Part shown: positions 4,870-21,023 of the stretch, in pieces
Layout: every line of letters starts with the position of its first letter
Numbering within the stretch: the stretch's first letter is position 1
Source: a virus
Strand: one strand, 5' to 3'
IMG/VR virus record: IMGVR_UViG_3300008110_005936
Coordinates: 18,852 to 41,319 of that record
DNA length: 22,468 bases
Position numbers and translations under genes: made by a program
Notes under the pieces: model-generated
Seen by the model: the letters and a program-made list of their open reading frames with translations, nothing else
What the model was told of the DNA's origin: nothing
Database searches by the model: none

Positions 4870-5403
4870 TTATAATATATTTTTTTTAATTACTTCTGTG
4901 TTTTTTATGTGAATTATCAATGAGTTTCTAATACCTTTGGTTATTTCTTCAACTTCATGTTCTATTGTAGATTCAAATATATAACAATTTCCTACAACTT
5001 TATTTAGTGTTAATACTTTATTGTTCATAGTATCATATACTTTTAAATCGCCGCCTTCAAACTCATCACTTAGTAAAACACCTAAAGTATATATTCTTGG
5101 ATTTGTATCATTTGGAGATAAATCTATATGTTTTGAAAATTTATCACCAGCTTTATATGTTAAAATATTAGAATCTAAATTAAGCTTTGTTGTTTCTATA
5201 TAAATTGATTCGTATATGAATTTTTTTATAATATCTAAGAACCAACTATTATCTTCGTTATCTAATACTTTATATTCATCAAATGAAGCTTTTACACCAT
5301 TTTTATTATACAAAAGAAATCCATCTAATTTTGGAGCAGTTGTTACTATTTCTAATATTTTAGAACATTCGCTTTTTGTAAATATTTCTTTTTGTATAAA
5401 CAT
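4870..5403 (-). CDS. 2OG-Fe(II) dioxygenase (prolyl-hydroxylase-like)
   Basis: A 177-aa protein with a double-stranded beta-helix oxygenase core. Iron ligands are His92 and Asp94 (KHIDLSPND) and His149 (IEHEVEEI). Arg159 (KGIRNSLI) is placed to bind 2-oxoglutarate. The segment GVLLSDEFEGGDLKVY is typical of the PKHD/P4H-like subgroup. Such enzymes hydroxylate amino-acid side chains, nucleobases or small molecules; the substrate here is unknown. The ligand set is complete, unlike the second oxygenase-like protein at 16.4 kb, whose Arg is replaced. Confidence 0.87.
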   Translation of the reverse strand: MFIQKEIFTKSECSKILEIVTTAPKLDGFLLYNKNGVKASFDEYKVLDNEDNSWFLDIIKKFIYESIYIETTKLNLDSNILTYKAGDKFSKHIDLSPNDTNPRIYTLGVLLSDEFEGGDLKVYDTMNNKVLTLNKVVGNCYIFESTIEHEVEEITKGIRNSLIIHIKNTEVIKKNIL

Positions 5404-6583: not shown

Positions 6584-7625
6584 TTAACCAATAGTTAACC
6601 GCTTTTGGGTTATTTATCCACAAACTACGATTATTCCATGGAAATTCGGGATGCATATATTCTTCCCATTTTAAATCTGGCATTTCTGTTGTGGTTTGTT
6701 GGTTATTTTCCACATTAAGTACATTTTCTTCCTCTAATGTTGATTTTTTTCCACTATCTTCGATATTTTGTGAATTATTTTCCACTATATCCTCTTTTTT
6801 ATCACCATATACCTCATATAACCCCAATTTTTCATCATTTTCCATCATTTCTATCAGAGCTTCTCTTTGTTTACGCTTTTTATCAGAAATTAATCCGTTA
6901 AAAGCGATAATTAAAGCAACTGCGAGTGGGTCAAACACCAAAACTATCAAAAATATGAAAAATTTCACTACTTGAGCCAATTCTACATTGAATGCTTCGG
7001 CTACAAATCGGAATCCACCCACTTCTTTCTCTATATCAATGTTTGCGTTTTTAATTTTATTGATTTCTTCGTAATTTTTGTTATTTTCTTCAGTTAAAGT
7101 ATTAATTTTTGCTGAAATTTGAGTAATTTCCTTATCAGCATTACGAACCATTTGAGAAAGACGTGATGTTGAACCATTTCTTTCAACAACTTTTGAAATA
7201 TTTTGCTCTTGTGAGTTACGAATGTTTTGTTGATTGGTTAATTGAGTGGTATAACGAGCAATTTCACTCTCATTTTGCTTAATTTTTGTATCAAAAACGG
7301 AAATTTCTCTTTCAATCTGCATCAACTGAATGTTTTGTTGTTGGAATGCGTTTGAAAGGTAACCAAAAATACCGGCAGAAGTGATTAACATCAATACACC
7401 AACGGAAATCGTTATGTACCATTTATTAAATCCACTAATTTCATCCCATTTTTGCTTCAAATAAGTAGCCGCAACTAACTTTGCCAGTTCTAATGCGGAA
7501 GCCATTATCATTACCGATAGTGAAGCACCAGCGAATAATACACCTAGTCCCGTTACGGAGAAGTAAGCCGCACATCCTGCGATAATTAGTGCGGATAGAC
7601 CCACTAAAATCTTAAGCCAATTCAT
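6555..7625 (-). CDS. Multi-span membrane protein with long periplasmic or cytosolic coiled coil
   Basis: A 356-aa protein with three N-terminal membrane segments (about 4-25, 28-52, 70-93), a Gln/Asn/Glu-rich coiled coil (about 97-205) and a fourth membrane segment (about 218-245, FFIFLIVLVFDPLAVALIIA). A basic stretch (DKKRKQREAL) and an acidic, low-complexity Asn-rich linker follow. The last 40 residues are Trp-rich (FPWNNRSLWINNPKAVNYW). Proteins of this layout occur in T4-like marine phages without known role; holin/spanin-like or superinfection-control functions are possible but unproven. Its end overlaps the upstream part of the UvdE frame. Confidence 0.8.
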   Translation of the reverse strand: MNWLKILVGLSALIIAGCAAYFSVTGLGVLFAGASLSVMIMASALELAKLVAATYLKQKWDEISGFNKWYITISVGVLMLITSAGIFGYLSNAFQQQNIQLMQIEREISVFDTKIKQNESEIARYTTQLTNQQNIRNSQEQNISKVVERNGSTSRLSQMVRNADKEITQISAKINTLTEENNKNYEEINKIKNANIDIEKEVGGFRFVAEAFNVELAQVVKFFIFLIVLVFDPLAVALIIAFNGLISDKKRKQREALIEMMENDEKLGLYEVYGDKKEDIVENNSQNIEDSGKKSTLEEENVLNVENNQQTTTEMPDLKWEEYMHPEFPWNNRSLWINNPKAVNYWLNNKKGTGIS

Positions 7626-9109: not shown

Positions 9110-9141
9110 CAAATATACAAAAATTTTTTCAAATTTCCAAA
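9110..9141 (-). promoter_or_regulatory. Host-type promoter for the HD hydrolase gene
   Basis: TTTGG (9141-9137), 19 bases, TATATTTG (9117-9110), exactly as at 9471-9502 and 20992-21023. It matches the Bacteroidetes -33 TTG / -7 TAnnTTTG consensus. It begins at the base after the stop of the upstream gene and leaves a leader of about 55 bases before the HD gene. Confidence 0.8.
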
Positions 9142-9470: not shown

Positions 9471-9502
9471 CAAATATAAGAATAATATTTGATTAAACCA
9501 AA
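9471..9502 (-). promoter_or_regulatory. Host-type promoter, probable leaderless transcript
   Basis: TTTGG (9502-9498), 19 bases, TATATTTG (9478-9471), then CGGTT and the ATG at 9465. Transcription should begin at or within a few bases of the ATG, leaving no room for a ribosome-binding site. Confidence 0.8.
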
Positions 9503-10084: not shown

Positions 10085-10612
10085 TTAAATCATATTACGT
10101 TTACCATTTCTATACTTCTTAGAATTATCTAATTTTAAAACAGTCGATATTTTTAAATAATCTTCTACTGATTTTAAACCATTACCATAATATAAATCCT
10201 CATATGTAATGTGTAAGCAATTTTCACACTTACTTAGTATCTGATTTTCTTCTTTTATAATTTGCTCCATACGATTTAATTCATTGGTATTTTCTTTTAA
10301 GAATGAATCATCTATTGTATATGGAGAAAAATATTTTTTAACATGTTCTGCGTATAACCTACTTTCAGCTTGCTCTTTTAGATTATTTCTGACAAGAACA
10401 ATACACTTATCAAAACTATTTCTAACTAAATCATATTTAGCTTCCGATGGAGTTAATTTTATTATAATATTTTCTACATCATTTATTATTTTTGAAAAAT
10501 TTTTATTGTTATAAAACCCTTCTCTTTGATAATCACATTTATAATGGGTCATCAACAGTTGAGCTAACGATGTTGAACCCGTTCTGTGAGTTGTGTATAT
10601 TAGTAGTTTCAT
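10085..10612 (-). CDS. P-loop sulfotransferase-like protein B
   Basis: A 175-aa relative of the preceding family member. The loop YTTHRTGSTSLAQLL (7-21) is the PAPS 5'-phosphosulfate binding site. CIVLVRNNLKEQAESRLYAE (about 70-90) is the 3'-phosphate motif, with the Arg and Ser of the family. It is short for a sulfotransferase (usually over 230), missing much of the C-terminal cap. The P-loop is at the extreme N-terminus, so the ATG at 10612 is firm, giving a 74-base overlap with the end of the SGNH gene upstream. Confidence 0.78.
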   Translation of the reverse strand: MKLLIYTTHRTGSTSLAQLLMTHYKCDYQREGFYNNKNFSKIINDVENIIIKLTPSEAKYDLVRNSFDKCIVLVRNNLKEQAESRLYAEHVKKYFSPYTIDDSFLKENTNELNRMEQIIKEENQILSKCENCLHITYEDLYYGNGLKSVEDYLKISTVLKLDNSKKYRNGKRNMI

Positions 10613-11399
10613 TTTTAATAAAATTTATAATAAAATTTGCTATATTAATATGCCCATCATAACTAGGATGCCAATCGTTTATCCAACCATTAGTATCCGC
10701 ATATATTGTTAGGTTTAATTCGTCCACAAATCCGTACATCCCTCTCGGATGTATTTCCATTAGATTAGTTGGTTTCGATAAATATTTTGGCCAAATATCT
10801 TCATTTATAATATATGTAGTTATTCCCATTGATTTTAAAATCTTTGTAAATTCTACAATTCTCCAAATACTACGTTCATAATATTTTTCAGTCATAATAA
10901 ATTCTGAAAAAAAATTGCGAATTGTATCGTATTTGGTTTTATTTAACTTTAAATTATTATTTTTTAAATCCTCTTGACTGTTTACATATTTTAATATATT
11001 TTCAGATTCTTTACGATACTCTTTTAGTAAACTAGTAACAAATATAGGTTTAAGAAAATAAGGAGAATCAAACATATTAGTTCCCATTAAAGTATTTTGT
11101 TTTAAAAAAGGAAAATCAAATCTACCAATGGTAGATGTTTGTATTATAACAATGTCGGATGGAGTGATAGTTGATGTATGTTCCAATAATGTATCAAAAA
11201 TAGTATCAGTAGTAATACCATTTTTGGATAAATCCACTAACTCTAATGATAACGAGTCTGCGACAATCTCATTCCAAATTTTTTTACCAGCTACTATATA
11301 GTTTTTAAAAGGACTAAGATAGTTATGAGCCGGATTATCAAAATATTTACATCCATGTCCTGCAGTAAAGCTATCCCCAAATGTCCAAAGTTTACTCAT
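10539..11399 (-). CDS. SGNH hydrolase-like protein 1
   Basis: A 286-aa SGNH-fold protein. Block I is WTFGDSFTAGHG (Ser10 nucleophile). A block II-like KNGITTDTIFD lies near residue 58, strand SDIVIIQTS near 81, and block V is DWHPSYDGH near 240 with the catalytic Asp-x-His arrangement. It is the first of three tandem relatives, longer than the others because of an insert of about 50 residues in the middle and a 20-residue C-terminal tail. That tail is read from the DNA that also encodes the P-loop of sulfotransferase B in another frame. Confidence 0.8.
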   Translation of the reverse strand: MSKLWTFGDSFTAGHGCKYFDNPAHNYLSPFKNYIVAGKKIWNEIVADSLSLELVDLSKNGITTDTIFDTLLEHTSTITPSDIVIIQTSTIGRFDFPFLKQNTLMGTNMFDSPYFLKPIFVTSLLKEYRKESENILKYVNSQEDLKNNNLKLNKTKYDTIRNFFSEFIMTEKYYERSIWRIVEFTKILKSMGITTYIINEDIWPKYLSKPTNLMEIHPRGMYGFVDELNLTIYADTNGWINDWHPSYDGHINIANFIINFIKNETTNIHNSQNGFNIVSSTVDDPL

Positions 11400-12067
11400 A
11401 TTAAAAATTTATAAAAATAATCTGATTGAATAAATTGTCCTTTTTCACCAAAATGACTATCGATTAATTTACCCCCTGTCTCTGTAGTTATATCTTCTGC
11501 GCCCAGCCTTATCAAATCTTCCCTAAAATTATTTGTTGATAAATAATGGGGTTTGTTTAATTTTTTATCAAATGTCCAATAGATTAATTTAAATCCAATT
11601 AATTTAGATAATAAATTTATAATTACCTCCCAATTATAAACTTCATTAATCCATTGAGTGTTAGTTCTATTATACAGAATTGAATTAACAACATCTATAT
11701 TTATACCATTTAATAAAACAGGATTATCAATGTGTTCCGGTTTAAATTGATTGGGCCTTATTGTAACAAATCCATTCGTTGTTTCATCTACTAATCTAAA
11801 TCTTTGAACGTAACCCCAACCAATGATAACAATATCGTATTTTTGTATTTGCTCCACACATCTACAAAACATATCAAATATATCATAGTTGGATTGGCCT
11901 GAAACAGCCATATTTTTTAGTTCCGTTCCTAATTCTTTTGATAGTAATTCGGACCAGCTTTTTGGGAAAGTACCACCCCTATATTCTTTGTAATACTTAA
12001 ATCTTCTTTCTTTAGTTTTACCAAAGATAGCTGAATTGTTATCACCAAATACCCATAACTTATTCAT
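11396..12067 (-). CDS. SGNH-like protein 2, nucleophile replaced
   Basis: A 223-aa paralogue of the next gene upstream: both begin MNKLWVFGD and share NYxIF, DIVIIGW, RFRLV and FVTIRPN. The catalytic block I of the family, GDS, is GDN here (FGDNNSA, residues 7-13), so the nucleophile Ser10 is Asn; a Ser at 12 is not in the usual position. The C-terminal DSHFGEKG retains the His. It is either a non-catalytic partner of its active paralogues or a binding protein. Overlaps the next gene by four bases (ATGA). Confidence 0.8.
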   Translation of the reverse strand: MNKLWVFGDNNSAIFGKTKERRFKYYKEYRGGTFPKSWSELLSKELGTELKNMAVSGQSNYDIFDMFCRCVEQIQKYDIVIIGWGYVQRFRLVDETTNGFVTIRPNQFKPEHIDNPVLLNGINIDVVNSILYNRTNTQWINEVYNWEVIINLLSKLIGFKLIYWTFDKKLNKPHYLSTNNFREDLIRLGAEDITTETGGKLIDSHFGEKGQFIQSDYFYKFLI

Positions 12068-12070
12068 AAA

Positions 12071-12748
12071 TTATTTTTTAGATATTAAATCATAAAAATA
12101 TTCAGATAATATTTTGTGGCCGTTCTCACTATAATGTCCATCGTTTATATATCCATTAGTTTCATCTGATATCTTTTCTAAATCTTTTATACATTCAATT
12201 TTAATAATATTCATATTATTATTAATAAATTGAAATGGAGACCAATGAATTACCTTACATTTATTATTTAAATAAAGATTTATTATTTTGATAAATCTAT
12301 TTACTTCATATTGAAATAACGCATTATCCCTATTAATCAGTAATTCGGTTATAGTTTTTAATGATATATTTTCAAATTCTTCTGTATTTGTTAGTGTACT
12401 TTGGGAGAACGATACGGTATCCAAATTGAAATTATTTGGTCTAATTGTTACAAAAGAATTGTTTTTACCAACTAATCGAAATCTAAGGGTAGATGACCAA
12501 CCAATAATTACAATATCATTTTCTTTTATACTATCTATAACATCCAATATTGTTTCAAATATAGTATAATTATCGATACCACCTATTGCACAATTAATTA
12601 ACCTATGTTGGATTTTTAAACTTAAAAAATCTCCCCAAACAAGTGGGGTATATCCTTTCCAATTTTTATACTTTAATCTCCAACTTTCTAAATTATTTAA
12701 TTTATTTGTTGCAGAGAAGGAATCGCCAAATACCCATAACTTATTCAT
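12071..12748 (-). CDS. SGNH hydrolase-like protein 3
   Basis: A 225-aa SGNH-fold protein with block I WVFGDSFSA (Ser10), a block II-like CAIGGIDN near residue 55, a strand NDIVIIGWSS near 78, and block V NDGHYSENGH near 205. The catalytic Ser and His are both in place, so this copy should be active, unlike paralogue 2. Activity on acylated sugars or lipids is the family norm; the substrate here is unknown. A TATATTTG sequence lies just before its ATG but without a -33 box. Confidence 0.8.
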   Translation of the reverse strand: MNKLWVFGDSFSATNKLNNLESWRLKYKNWKGYTPLVWGDFLSLKIQHRLINCAIGGIDNYTIFETILDVIDSIKENDIVIIGWSSTLRFRLVGKNNSFVTIRPNNFNLDTVSFSQSTLTNTEEFENISLKTITELLINRDNALFQYEVNRFIKIINLYLNNKCKVIHWSPFQFINNNMNIIKIECIKDLEKISDETNGYINDGHYSENGHKILSEYFYDLISKK

Positions 12749-12758
12749 TCAAATATAA

Positions 12759-12854
12759 TTAAGAATGCTTTGCCTTAATGGCTGCGAATAAGATTTGTAA
12801 TAATGATAAAGAAGCCGCTTTATCGGAAGGAGTAGCTGATGTTTTTGTGCTCAT
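12759..12854 (-). CDS. 31-aa peptide next to the ATP-grasp/Hint gene
   Basis: A 31-codon ORF fills the gap between the ATP-grasp/Hint gene (11 bases upstream) and SGNH protein 3 (10 bases downstream). It begins MSTKTSATPSDKAAS (Ser/Thr/Lys-rich) and ends in a helical LLQILFAAIKAKHS. Its tight fit, and an A-rich sequence before the ATG as in neighbouring genes, argue it is translated. It has no cysteine and only one acidic residue. A link to the ATP-grasp-like protein is conjecture. Confidence 0.5.
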   Translation of the reverse strand: MSTKTSATPSDKAASLSLLQILFAAIKAKHS

Positions 12855-12865
12855 TTTATTTAAAT

Positions 12866-14719
12866 TTATTTTTGTTCATCATATACTAAAATACCATTAG
12901 CATAAAAATTATGATTATTTTCTACAAATAAGTTATATGTTTGAATAGGTGATACTATTTCTGTTATAGATTCAATTTCAACTTTGTTACCATTAATATC
13001 AATACATACACTACTAATATCCATTTTAAGGATTTCACCATTATACCATTCTTTTGTTTTTTCTGGACTATATGATATTAATGTACCATCTATATTATAA
13101 TATGGATGGTCAAATGTGTTTAAAATGGATGTACCATTTTTGAATTTAATTTCTATAATATCATTTTGTATTGGAGAAACTATTTCTAATACTTTATTTA
13201 ATTCTTTTTGGTTTGTATTGAAATTGAAAGACCAAACTAAATCACCCACTACTACATCTTTTATCTCTTTCTCAATTCCATCCATTGATATTAGTGTATC
13301 TTCCGAAAAACAACAATAAGGGTATGTGTGACATTTATTGTGTAATAATATATTACCAACATTATTTTTGGTAATATCATTATGCGTTGTACCGGCAACA
13401 AATACATCATCAGGCTCTATGTCTAAAATAGTAATACTACCGGAATACCATACATTTTCTTTAGATATTATTGGCAGAGCAATTTGATTTGTAGTTACTA
13501 TATAATCATTTAAGTTAACATCAGCCGCACTTACGAATCGTATATTATTATCAACCGAACTACTTATTACTAATAATTCACTATTAGATAATATACTAGA
13601 ACCACTAATTGTATCATTACCATATACTATATTAACTAACCAACCCTCATAAGCTTTGTTAGTAATAAAATTTACCGAAGATGTTTCGTATGTGATAGTA
13701 TTCAATTCAGATGATGATATATACCAATCCAATGTTTCTTCCGCTGAAGCTGTCAAACTTAAATTAGGGAATCGAACCGATTTTATAGTATCTCCCATTG
13801 ATAGCGTTTCTATGTTAACCACTTCTTCAATACCATTGACTATTTTAACAACTTCATAGCTGCCGGGTACACCAAATGATAAATAATTTGGGTTAGAGAA
13901 GTACATAGCTCTCCATTTATTATCAAGTCTATTGTTTGTATAGGTTATAATAGATGTATCTAATGGTAATTGATTGTTGGTGATACTAATACCAATTGGT
14001 ATCATAGTTTCAACATCTGATAATAAAATAACATTTAATCGTATTATATTACTAATTTTACCAGCAGCATTTAAATTTGTATTTATTTCAAATTCTTGTA
14101 TCATATAATCATCCGCTAATTCGGATTTTAAAGTATCCAATTGCGTTGATGATGTAATATTATAAAAAGCTGGATAGTCAATTCTATCAAAATCTGGCAA
14201 AGACTTCTTTACTATTACATTTGGTGATAATCCATTATCAACTAAATTAGTTAGATTATCTAAAATTGAATCATCGTCTGTATATTTAACATATGTCTTT
14301 GGTAGTATATTTTCATTATTCGAATCAAACAACAATTTTGCAACAGCCGATTTATCTCTACAATATGTATCATCTATAATAGCTGTTGCATCATATGAAC
14401 ACCTTAAATAAAATGTATTAGGTTCATCTGTTATAGATGGTGCAACCACACTATTATTATTTACCCAAATAGTTGAAAATTCTATTGAAAATTCATTACA
14501 TTTGGCTTCAAACAAATTTAATACCGCATCAACAACGTGCTTCTTTTTATATATCATTACAAATTTAGTGTACGAATTATTTACCAAATATGTAAATAAT
14601 GGGTCTAAATCCATATATGGTACATCCGGCAGATATAAATCTGCATCTGTATTTATTTCTAATAATTTGTATCCATTTTCTAATTTTAGGATATCGGCGC
14701 CTATCAATACACTTCTCAT
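12866..14719 (-). CDS. ATP-grasp-like protein fused to tandem Hint domains
   Basis: A 617-aa protein in three parts. Residues 1-260 look ATP-grasp-like: GYKLLEINTDAD (16-27), the segment YLRCSYDATAIIDDTYCRDK (104-123) leading into AKLLFDSN and ILPKTYV, VIVKK (168-172) and YMIQEFEIN (205-213). Residues about 275-462 read as a divergent Hint-like region ending NVGNILLHNKC. Residues 469-617 are a clear Hint domain: CCFSEDTLISMDG start, VVVGDLVWSF, NTFDHPYY block, and the ending NHNFYANGILVYDEQK. The normal terminal His-Asn is Tyr-Asp, and the chain stops four residues later, so splicing is unlikely but N-terminal cleavage at Cys469 or Cys470 is possible. Similar proteins occur in marine T4-like phages, possibly as virion components. 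Confidence 0.78.
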   Translation of the reverse strand: MRSVLIGADILKLENGYKLLEINTDADLYLPDVPYMDLDPLFTYLVNNSYTKFVMIYKKKHVVDAVLNLFEAKCNEFSIEFSTIWVNNNSVVAPSITDEPNTFYLRCSYDATAIIDDTYCRDKSAVAKLLFDSNNENILPKTYVKYTDDDSILDNLTNLVDNGLSPNVIVKKSLPDFDRIDYPAFYNITSSTQLDTLKSELADDYMIQEFEINTNLNAAGKISNIIRLNVILLSDVETMIPIGISITNNQLPLDTSIITYTNNRLDNKWRAMYFSNPNYLSFGVPGSYEVVKIVNGIEEVVNIETLSMGDTIKSVRFPNLSLTASAEETLDWYISSSELNTITYETSSVNFITNKAYEGWLVNIVYGNDTISGSSILSNSELLVISSSVDNNIRFVSAADVNLNDYIVTTNQIALPIISKENVWYSGSITILDIEPDDVFVAGTTHNDITKNNVGNILLHNKCHTYPYCCFSEDTLISMDGIEKEIKDVVVGDLVWSFNFNTNQKELNKVLEIVSPIQNDIIEIKFKNGTSILNTFDHPYYNIDGTLISYSPEKTKEWYNGEILKMDISSVCIDINGNKVEIESITEIVSPIQTYNLFVENNHNFYANGILVYDEQK

Positions 14720-14728
14720 ATTTTTTAT

Positions 14729-15301
14729 TTAAATTATTTTTTTTATTTCTTTATCTTTGTTTATAAATATTTCTAATTTGATTTTCCAATCATAAGTATC
14801 GTTGTAAATCAATAAAAAGCGATTACCAAATTGTTTTCTATATTCTGCTAAATTAGAATAGGCTAAATACCAACTATCTATTGTTATTTCAGTTGGATAT
14901 ACCCTATCTCTACCTTCGACTCTATTTATACAGGTTTCTAAGTCGCTGTATAGCATAATCATAGAAGTAAAATATCCTGCTTTTTCTAAGATACGTCTTT
15001 GTAGCATAATAATATCTACATCACGTCCGATACCATCTATAACAATATCTTTTCCATCATTTACCGCATTCTTAAACTTTTCATCATTTAATAGTTTAGA
15101 TTGTTCGAATAATTTTATAGAAGCTTCGAATTCTGAATTTGTGAAGTTCTTTATTTTTAATCCCAATCCACTCTGAATTAATAACTCTTCATAGATTATA
15201 TCAACATCTATATGTACAAATCCTGAAAGGTTGTTTTTAACAAATGTAGATTTACCACTTCCACCACTTCCGCATACAAATATAGCTTTTTTATTTCTCA
15301 T
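14729..15301 (-). CDS. P-loop kinase (AAA_33/zeta-toxin-like)
   Basis: A 190-aa P-loop kinase. Walker A is CGSGGSGKSTF (10-20), followed by HIDVDIIYEELL (substrate-binding DxD region), a Walker B-like DIVIDGIGRD near 89 and a lid-type Arg-rich GRDRVYPTE near 130. The pattern fits small nucleotide/sugar or polynucleotide 5'-kinases such as T4 Pnkp N-terminal domain, or zeta-type kinases. Its start overlaps the end of the nucleotidyltransferase gene by 11 bases. The substrate is not evident. Confidence 0.8.
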   Translation of the reverse strand: MRNKKAIFVCGSGGSGKSTFVKNNLSGFVHIDVDIIYEELLIQSGLGLKIKNFTNSEFEASIKLFEQSKLLNDEKFKNAVNDGKDIVIDGIGRDVDIIMLQRRILEKAGYFTSMIMLYSDLETCINRVEGRDRVYPTEITIDSWYLAYSNLAEYRKQFGNRFLLIYNDTYDWKIKLEIFINKDKEIKKII

Positions 15302-15750: not shown

Positions 15751-16371
15751 TTAAAGTATTTTTAATTCTTCATCTTTTAATCTAACTCTTTTTTCATTGG
15801 ATATTACCCATAAATTCAAAAGTTTTTCGTTTGGTATTCTATTTATAGAACTAAAAATCTCATCTAATATTTTGTGGTTATTATCTAAAAAAATATCTTC
15901 GTAGTAATAAATTTTTTTATTATACTTTTTGGATAACTCATTTATTTTATTGGTTGAATACTCCACCCTTTTAGTATTCAATTGAATTATTTCATTAGGA
16001 ACTAACTCCATTCTATAACGTCTTTTATCATGCCACCTAAAACTATTAGTATAAGTTTGATATGAAAAACTTTCAATTTGTAATTGTTTATCCAATCTAT
16101 CTAATAATATTATTTCATCGAAATGTTCAAATAGCCAAACATGCATATCATTGATATTGATATCTGATTGAGTTTGGTCTACTAATGTTTTAATTAAAAC
16201 ATGCTTTTTGGATTCAATAATAGGTTTTTGATTGATATCATATCCGATAGGTCTACTCATAGTGTTAAATGGTTCTAAACCAAAATAATAATTAGATGGT
16301 AAGTGTGCTCTTAATAATTCATATAAAGATGTAGAACCTGCTCTACCCGTTGATATAATACAAATTTTCAT
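15751..16371 (-). CDS. P-loop sulfotransferase-like protein C
   Basis: A 206-aa third family member with ISTGRAGSTSLYELLRAHLP (PAPS 5' loop, 6-25) and a 3'-phosphate-binding segment EIILLDRLDKQLQIESFSYQ, containing the expected Arg and Ser. FGLEPFNTM follows the loop where the acceptor-binding Pro/Phe lies in relatives. It is full-length at both motifs and not a fragment. One base separates it from the nucleotidyltransferase gene, in the same operon as the other two copies. Confidence 0.8.
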   Translation of the reverse strand: MKICIISTGRAGSTSLYELLRAHLPSNYYFGLEPFNTMSRPIGYDINQKPIIESKKHVLIKTLVDQTQSDININDMHVWLFEHFDEIILLDRLDKQLQIESFSYQTYTNSFRWHDKRRYRMELVPNEIIQLNTKRVEYSTNKINELSKKYNKKIYYYEDIFLDNNHKILDEIFSSINRIPNEKLLNLWVISNEKRVRLKDEELKIL

Positions 16372-16383
16372 TAATACCTAAAC

Positions 16384-16989
16384 TTAAATTAATTTACTAT
16401 TATTTGTTTTTTCTAATATATTACAATTAATAACACATTTATCATCATTAGTAGAAGGTATTCCAGCGTGTGGGATTAGTCCATCAAATATTAAAACTCT
16501 ATTTTCTATACAATCTATTTTTTTAATTACATTTTTATCATCATCATATAAAAGTGTATAACCATTATTTGTATTAATATAAAATATATAAGAAGTGTGA
16601 GGAGTTTCCCTATCTATATGAACCGCCTTTTCGATATGTTGTTCTGAAAATATTTGAGGTTTGTTTAAATTTACCTTTGTTCTTAATTCATATGTAAATT
16701 CTTTATTAAGAATGGATTCAACATTTGACTTTATACTATAAATTATAGATAATATATTTTTATCAATTGTAATATATTCATCTGGAATTGATATAACAAA
16801 CCCATCTCCAATTTTTGTATCAATAAGGCTTGGATTTGTAAAATTTTTGGTTATTCCATTTTCATTTTTTACTATTCCTTCAAAGTAACACCAATTTAAT
16901 TTGTTTTGTTCTTTCACAAAATAATTTTGTAAAACTTTAAGAGATGTGGTATCTAAACAATTATCAATTATAATAATATCATCAATCAT
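16384..16989 (-). CDS. 2OG-Fe(II) oxygenase-like protein with Arg-to-Lys change
   Basis: A 201-aa cupin/DSBH-like protein. His124 and Asp126 (AVHIDRETPH) and His174 (GLIPHAGIPS) form the iron triad. The position that normally binds 2-oxoglutarate with Arg, ten residues after the last His, is Lys184 (DDKCVINC), a known alternative in some subfamilies. IFDGLIPHAG matches phage and marine bacterial proteins annotated as 2OG-Fe(II)-like. The substrate is unknown; hydroxylation or desaturation of a peptide or sugar is possible. Overlaps the zinc-ribbon gene by four bases. Confidence 0.75.
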   Translation of the reverse strand: MIDDIIIIDNCLDTTSLKVLQNYFVKEQNKLNWCYFEGIVKNENGITKNFTNPSLIDTKIGDGFVISIPDEYITIDKNILSIIYSIKSNVESILNKEFTYELRTKVNLNKPQIFSEQHIEKAVHIDRETPHTSYIFYINTNNGYTLLYDDDKNVIKKIDCIENRVLIFDGLIPHAGIPSTNDDKCVINCNILEKTNNSKLI

Positions 16990-20991: not shown

Positions 20992-21023
20992 CAAATATAC
21001 GAAACTTTTTTGATATTGCCAAA
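20992..21023 (-). promoter_or_regulatory. Host-type promoter for the DNA-binding-like gene
   Basis: TTTGG (21023-21019), 19 bases, TATATTTG (20999-20992). It starts one base beyond the stop of the upstream gene and leaves a leader of about 60 bases that can fold into a stem (20964-20969 with 20943-20948). Confidence 0.8.

Follow-up and report, generated by a model that had tools for sequence, protein, structure and literature searches.

A phage ATP-grasp-like/Hint fusion protein and its conserved partner peptide: candidates for a peptide-conjugation pathway

What might a phage do with a protein that joins an ATP-grasp-like N-terminus to Hint domains, and is the short open reading frame that follows its gene a true partner? 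The question is raised by a 22,468-base stretch of DNA (the window), part of a 41,319-base IMG/VR virus record from a T4-like myovirus whose baseplate block lies at the opposite end from the window. An earlier note on this DNA had described the fusion gene and a 31-codon ORF 11 bases beyond it; both are present as described, with exactly 11 bases between them. The locus contains the following features.

12866-14719, minus strand: ATP-grasp/Hint fusion gene, 617 aa
13880..14719, minus strand: predicted ATP-grasp-like domain, circularly permuted, residues 1-280 (AlphaFold, Foldseek, conservation)
13337..13873, minus strand: degenerate Hint1, residues 283-461 (Z 17.6)
13313..13336, minus strand: linker KCHTYPYC between Hint1 and Hint2, residues 462-469
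12878..13312, minus strand: Hint2, residues 470-614 (Pfam, NCBIfam, 6y75)
12866..12877, minus strand: Glu-Gln-Lys and stop after Tyr613-Asp614 (most Hint-bearing relatives end ...VHN-K)
12759-12854, minus strand: partner peptide ORF, 31 aa, MSTKTSATPSDKAASLSLLQILFAAIKAKHS, a predicted amphipathic helix with a KHS-COOH end

A viral gene family and its partner peptide

Searches with the single protein returned one match, a 100% identical contig. A mixed alignment that included intein fragments extended the family to about 19 relatives, most of them full-length and 23-61% identical, and an N-terminal profile scan of viral contigs confirmed 113. Neighbourhood analyses rest on 80 loci fetched from these 113 relatives, which are of common ancestry, so that locus counts are not independent. 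The same profile gave 24 pattern hits in bacterial and archaeal genomes, none of which was confirmed, and queries with the N-terminal half of three family members found no member in 50,697 cultured-phage records. Among 5.39 million papers, not one names 'ATP-grasp' together with 'Hint domain'.

Judged by baseplate protein, the closest cultured phage is Flavobacterium phage immuto, in which the ATP-grasp/Hint family has no match; the baseplate wedge proteins of immuto and the window phage are 38% identical. Bacteroidota-type promoter patterns are over-represented in the window (11 seen versus 2.4 expected), which suggests a Bacteroidota host. Matches to TTTG-N-TATATTTG lie at these positions.

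9110-9141: Bacteroidota-type promoter match
9471-9502: Bacteroidota-type promoter match
20992-21023: Bacteroidota-type promoter match

The link between the fusion gene and the short ORF, which the earlier note had offered as conjecture, proved to be the strongest part of its proposal. A peptide ORF of one type, 31-52 aa long, adjoins the fusion gene in 78/78 intact neighbourhoods; the neighbourhood of L158 is truncated and is outside this count. The distance is at most 86 bases in 74 of 79 loci, and the ORF lies slightly farther downstream in L089, L090, L157 and L163. The peptide is under purifying selection, with a median pN/pS of 0.26 over 53 pairs and, for the window peptide against that of L090, values of 0.13/0.59 (pN/pS about 0.22). 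That it is a real partner gene is therefore close to certain. The earlier note had named two outcomes that would refute its proposal, a predicted structure without an ATP-grasp fold and a short ORF missing from or damaged in relatives; both were looked for, and neither was seen. At L089 (about 6860-7080), and at the same place in L090, a gene for a 69-aa membrane-protein-like product stands between the ligase and peptide genes; these are the two closest relatives, and both keep the peptide despite the insert.

The peptides follow the consensus [ST]xx[ED]KxK[VI]xx[IV][IL]xKF[FI]x[YL][FI]KxKH[SL]-COOH, a predicted amphipathic helix nearly free of Cys and Trp with a mean net charge of +4. Conservation spans the last 24 residues and is sharpest near the C-terminal KH[SL], where the His at -2 is the most conserved residue (51/56); in 13 of the 56 peptides, 1-2 residues follow KH[SL].

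A predicted ATP-grasp-like domain and its possible substrate

The predicted fold bore out the ATP-grasp-like N-terminus of the earlier note; sequence searches did not. Pfam and PDB profile searches for ATP-grasp gave nothing above threshold, and the domain matches none of the profiles PF03738 (GSP_synth), PF04174 and PF14403 (CP_ATPgrasp). The fold comes from an AlphaFold model of residues 1-468 built on an alignment of 59 relatives (pLDDT 86, pTM 0.77); an earlier whole-protein model (17 rows, pLDDT 69) was weak at the N-terminus and served for Hint2 alone. Foldseek matched the ATP-grasp part to YgiC (6.6e-7), YjfC (5.7e-6), human GSS (8.4e-6), GspS (3.8e-5) and yeast glutathione synthetase, with E values from 6.6e-7 to 1e-4 across the ATP-grasp matches and a low TM score (TMq about 0.31 of the 468-aa model, rmsd about 8 Å). 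YgiC, YjfC, the glutathione synthetases and GspS are circularly permuted ATP-grasp enzymes. On this modelling, the N-terminus very probably has an ATP-grasp fold, and because no sequence profile recognises the domain, it constitutes a new family of an established fold class.

Ten or so positions are invariant in the 59 rows, nine of them polar, and the candidate catalytic residues D9, E21, N23, T24, R106, D116, Y119, K171 and R227 are identical in 59/59. The putative metal motif E21-x-N23-T24 comes first in the domain order, and the residue order D9...E21-x-N23 at the extreme N-terminus parallels that of YgiC (DLAWDGTGEPKLLENNADT); in an hhalign comparison with YgiC only the D..E-x-N stretch aligned, weakly, at 8-9% probability. 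The usual position of the hinge glutamate is variable, residue 209 being Q, E, K or N.

The structural matches bear on chemistry. YgiC and YjfC are annotated as peptide--spermidine ligases (Pederick et al. 2023, as cited in PMC12568646), and in GSS and GspS a peptide C-terminal carboxylate is phosphorylated and then attacked by an amine (PMC10979984). A peptide that is conserved, its C-terminus included, and encoded beside the enzyme fits what chemistry of the GSS/GspS type would require. We therefore propose, tentatively and at somewhat less than even confidence, that the fusion gene encodes a peptide C-terminal amidoligase acting on the neighbouring peptide. The permuted ATP-grasp domain would phosphorylate the C-terminal carboxylate of the adjacent 31-52-aa peptide, and an amine (an amino acid, a polyamine or a protein) would attack the acyl phosphate; in this scheme the peptide would serve as a carrier or modifier, not as the core of a graspetide. 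Hint1 would be a fixed structural or C-cleaving module, and the optional Hint or S74 domain described below would cut at its own N-terminus (469/470 here), remove itself and so mature the enzyme C-terminus. The product might be tailored by 2OG-Fe oxygenases, radical-SAM enzymes, methyltransferases (SET and others) and sulfotransferase-like proteins, joined in one clade by a flavin halogenase; a K-[STN]-L-I tag shared at the C-terminus may hold these enzymes together.

By analogy, the most likely reading of the locus is a phage peptide-conjugation pathway acting on the C-terminus of a carrier peptide, most likely GspS/YgiC-like in chemistry and scaffold-peptide-like in logic, a member of neither group and not a graspetide system. 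YgiC/YjfC and GspS provide the best ATP-grasp fold matches, apparently share the early D...E-x-N motif and belong to a class that acts on peptide C-terminal carboxylates, the action proposed here. The phage family differs from them in having no family membership detectable by sequence, in its shorter N-terminal part, in its fusion to Hint domains, in the dedicated ribosomal peptide encoded alongside, and in its occurrence in viral contigs only. Eukaryotic-type glutathione synthetase is likewise similar in fold class by Foldseek, but its substrate is a free dipeptide and it has neither a Hint domain nor a partner gene. The proposed logic of a carrier peptide, ATP-dependent C-terminal extension and tailoring by oxidases and halogenases is that of the PEARL/pearlin (ammosamide) systems. 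PEARLs, however, are tRNA-dependent, LanB-related ligases without Hint domains, and no Pfam or NCBIfam match to a LanB-like peptide aminoacyl-tRNA ligase was found in the fusion protein or the scanned neighbours.

The peptide could equally be no substrate at all but a small subunit that the ATP-grasp-Hint protein requires, or its chaperone or regulator, with the ligase acting on some metabolite or other protein. An amphipathic, basic peptide conserved over its last 24 residues is what a docking subunit would look like, and the residues that extend past KH[SL] in some peptides also fit such a role. Conservation peaks at the terminal KH[SL], the part of a peptide on which this structural class works, and we regard the subunit explanation as rather unlikely.

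Hint domains and their substitutes

What the earlier note called a divergent Hint-like region models as a real Hint fold spanning residues 283-461. A VIA structure search placed this Hint1 domain at Z 17.6 and an rmsd of 1.7 Å from the Ssp DnaB mini-intein, with all of the best 50 VIA matches being Hint; among the named matches of a BFVD search, only the Hint type appeared. In addition, the alignment A7 profile matches the KlbA intein 2jmz at 1.7e-5. The position of Hint1 Cys1 is occupied by Gly283, and neither Cys nor Ser occurs in that column in 59 rows; a Cys stands one residue ahead of it in 2 of the 59. The terminal His460-Asn461 is retained here, with Asn present in 78/78 intact loci and His substituted in a few. 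Since Cys1 is missing and the closing Asn is kept, Hint1 could at most cleave at its C-side.

The second Hint domain was confirmed as a clear one, including the replacement of His-Asn by Tyr-Asp. Hint2 matches Pfam Intein_splicing (1.2e-7) and the NCBIfam intein N- and C-terminal models, and its nearest solved structure is 6y75 (BIL2 of Tetrahymena BUBL1; TMt 0.87). It comprises Cys470, block B T535-F-D-H538, block F His603 and the terminus Tyr613-Asp614, of which C470, T535 and H538 (Cys1 and TxxH) are invariant in alignment A3. The earlier note had placed cleavage near Cys469; the nucleophile is the invariant Cys470. Hint2 lacks the combination of a terminal His-Asn with a nucleophilic +1 residue that splicing needs, reading Tyr-Asp-Glu here and HN-K in most relatives, so that autocleavage rather than splicing is to be expected from its sequence. 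The change to Tyr-Asp is seen in the window clade.

Across the family, the ATP-grasp-like part and Hint1 are kept with the peptide gene alongside, and 0-3 Hints follow. Where present, the 1-3 tandem Hints after Hint1 end in VHN-K-stop, mostly with 0-3 residues (AP, SP, R, RA or nothing) between one Hint and the next; overall, linkers range from 0 to about 30 residues. Hint2 is absent from L092, L093-L105, L145, L148, L152 and L159, which keep the enzyme and the peptide; after Hint1, L093-L105 carry a Cys/Trp-rich tail, and L092, L145 and L152 a few residues. In L091:5001-6635 (53% identity in the N-terminal part), a Peptidase_S74 chaperone-protease domain (SDIRLKENI...; E 6.5e-4, slightly short of the Pfam cut-off) begins where Hint2 would start, so that one self-cleaving module has taken the place of a different one. 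Because the later Hints vary from 0 to 3 and S74 substitutes for them in one relative, the conserved unit is ATP-grasp, Hint1 and peptide. The autoproteolytic domains further along are accessories that can stand in for one another, and what they would have in common is to cut the chain directly after the post-Hint1 segment. Of the self-processing idea in the earlier note, the two Hint domains are supported; self-processing by the Hints after Hint1, which are optional, would be an accessory and not the core role. Repeated autoproteolytic tails, whether Hint arrays or S74, on one enzyme amount to a natural experiment in Hint retention.

Two further observations concern these arrays. L113, L134, L128 and their relatives (about 912 aa) carry four tandem Hint domains in one phage protein, with the junctions HN-AP-C, HN-R(A)-C and HN-K(F)-C. 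In L032:4001-6253 / L163, an in-frame stop lies inside the last Hint of one relative, and the downstream peptide is intact.

Two other explanations put the Hint domains at the centre. In the first, the ATP-grasp-Hint1 chain would end in a thioester formed by Hint2, which would hand the chain on to an amine and so fasten the enzyme to a partner or to the virion. BUBL1 BIL2, the structure nearest to Hint2, makes isopeptide conjugates (PMC8616854); BUBL proteins also have several autoprocessing domains per chain, and the window-clade Hint2, with Cys470 and TxxH but without its terminal HN, would be limited to N-side chemistry. The phage proteins differ from BUBL in having no ubiquitin-like domains and in Hint arrays that mostly abut, with 0-3 residues between. 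The enzyme and peptide are kept in relatives without Hint2 and in L091, where S74 takes its place, which rules out Hint2 conjugation as the core function common to the family; the probability of this explanation is low.

In the second, a C-cleaving Hint1 and an N-cleaving Hint2 or S74 would cut out the segment that separates them (KCHTYPYC in the window), perhaps in cyclic form, their order being that of split-intein peptide cyclisation. The losses in the window clade are complementary, Hint1 lacking Cys1 and keeping Asn, Hint2 keeping Cys470 and lacking HN. The linkers of the two closest relatives (KCTWSGFC and KCAWSGFC) count in its favour, as do the Cys/Trp/Tyr-rich tails that follow the Hint1 HN in L093-L105, for example CWCPWSYCGDWCYSSWCPAC. 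Trp in the post-Hint1 segment also goes with a Trp halogenase on the contig (9/16 versus 1/35 contigs; Fisher 3e-5 with phylogeny ignored). Many linkers, however, have 0-2 residues (HN-C abutment, A-P or S-P) and leave at most a dipeptide to free; the closing Asn is perhaps retained for folding, and most last Hints outside the window clade still have HN. Linker excision as the family's function is accordingly improbable.

Enzyme neighbourhood and a shared C-terminal tag

Enzyme genes surround the fusion gene in the window.

14729..15301, minus strand: P-loop kinase-like protein, directly upstream (AAA_33 2.5e-7, Zeta_toxin 4.8e-7), tag-like end ...EIKKII
15751..16371, minus strand: sulfotransferase-like protein (judged by eye, without a Pfam match; cluster 4), tag-like end ...ELKIL
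16384..16989, minus strand: 2OG-Fe(II) oxygenase-like protein (PF13640 6.9e-4, under the curated cut-off), tag-like end ...NNSKLI
10539..12748, minus strand: three consecutive SGNH-hydrolase-like proteins, immediately downstream of the peptide ORF (weak Pfam Lipase_GDSL; cluster 6)

Pfam-confirmed neighbours across the family are 2OG-Fe, SET, radical SAM, Trp halogenase and methyltransferase proteins. The 2OG-Fe oxygenases form cluster 0, with 125 genes across 65 loci; sulfotransferase-like and SGNH-like proteins also occur, as do Trp-halogenase-type flavoproteins in one clade. PADLOC detected no defence system apart from one generic 2OG match, and the representative of the SGNH-like cluster was unmatched in cultured phages. 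Marine T4-like phages carry 'auxiliary' 2OG-Fe oxygenases, halogenases and the like, whose substrates are mostly unknown. Finding enzymes of this sort around a putative orphan ligase and its peptide offers a concrete hypothesis for their substrate, the peptide C-terminus, and if it is true, phages encode peptide-conjugate chemistry of their own.

This setting also bears on the earlier suggestion of a self-cleaving virion protein, in which a tail protein with a retired ATP-grasp fold would be matured by a C-terminal autoproteolytic domain, as in tail fibres. Phage tail proteins typically carry autoproteolytic tails of the S74 type, and L091 has such a domain. The candidate ATP-grasp residues, however, are invariant in all 59 rows and show no decay, the neighbours are mainly enzymes, and in L003 the baseplate block is at a distance; the virion assignment is not favoured, and we consider it improbable.

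The graspetide parallel drawn in the earlier note, which would have side-chain lactones or lactams formed in a small peptide, is highly improbable: the ATP-grasp gene with an adjacent small ORF and the radical-SAM and methyltransferase neighbours do recall such (microviridin-like) clusters, but the ATP-grasp class differs by predicted fold, and the 56 peptides, conserved in their C-terminal half and with 0.8% Gly, have no GG-type site and no conserved Ser/Thr-acidic pair in the C-terminal part that could form a core, whereas graspetide precursors combine a leader motif with a GG-type cleavage site and have cores of conserved Ser/Thr-Asp/Glu/Lys (PMC8939145).

Many neighbouring proteins share a C-terminal motif of roughly K..K-K-[STN]-L-I-COOH. 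Ends in [LI][LI] occur in 270 of 752 unique same-strand neighbours (36%), as against 6 of 355 proteins (1.7%) at 60 control phage Hint loci, and K-x-[LI][LI] ends in 136/752 versus 0/355. Homology inflates these counts; convergence across clusters is independent of them. Most members carry the tag in 18 of 58 homology clusters, and it is rare or absent in 35, including DNA-metabolism genes. Four window ORFs are tagged, three of them listed above.

4870-5403: tagged ORF
14729-15301: tagged ORF (P-loop kinase-like)
15751-16371: tagged ORF (sulfotransferase-like)
16384-16989: tagged ORF (2OG-Fe(II) oxygenase-like)

One of the SGNH-hydrolase-like genes, at 11396-12067, ends in ...KFLI.

The tag could be a signal in the protein or, as an operon start signal, in the DNA. 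Leu codons at -2 are used at near normal frequencies, and untagged genes of the same operons are also close to the next start; for these two reasons a protein-level signal is preferred. Ile at -1 prefers ATA, at least partly through ATGA overlaps, and some contribution from the DNA is possible. The motif looks like a docking signal that depends on the terminal carboxylate, and its [ST]-x-hydrophobic end is reminiscent of class I PDZ ligands; the common tag is a candidate recruitment signal for the island enzymes. A broader picture, to which we give clearly less than even weight, is a new type of biosynthetic system restricted to phages, in which an orphan ligase and its carrier peptide would be the hub and the tag would recruit tailoring enzymes from about 18 unrelated clusters, with trimming of the hub enzyme by Hint or S74 domains and, in some lineages, release of a short peptide.

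In immuto the level of the tag is that of the background (5/118). On the 132-kb contig G005, tagged genes crowd the interval from 65 to 97 kb (19/40 versus 6/147 elsewhere; p 2e-10), and the ATP-grasp gene lies inside it, at 76.6-78.5 kb.
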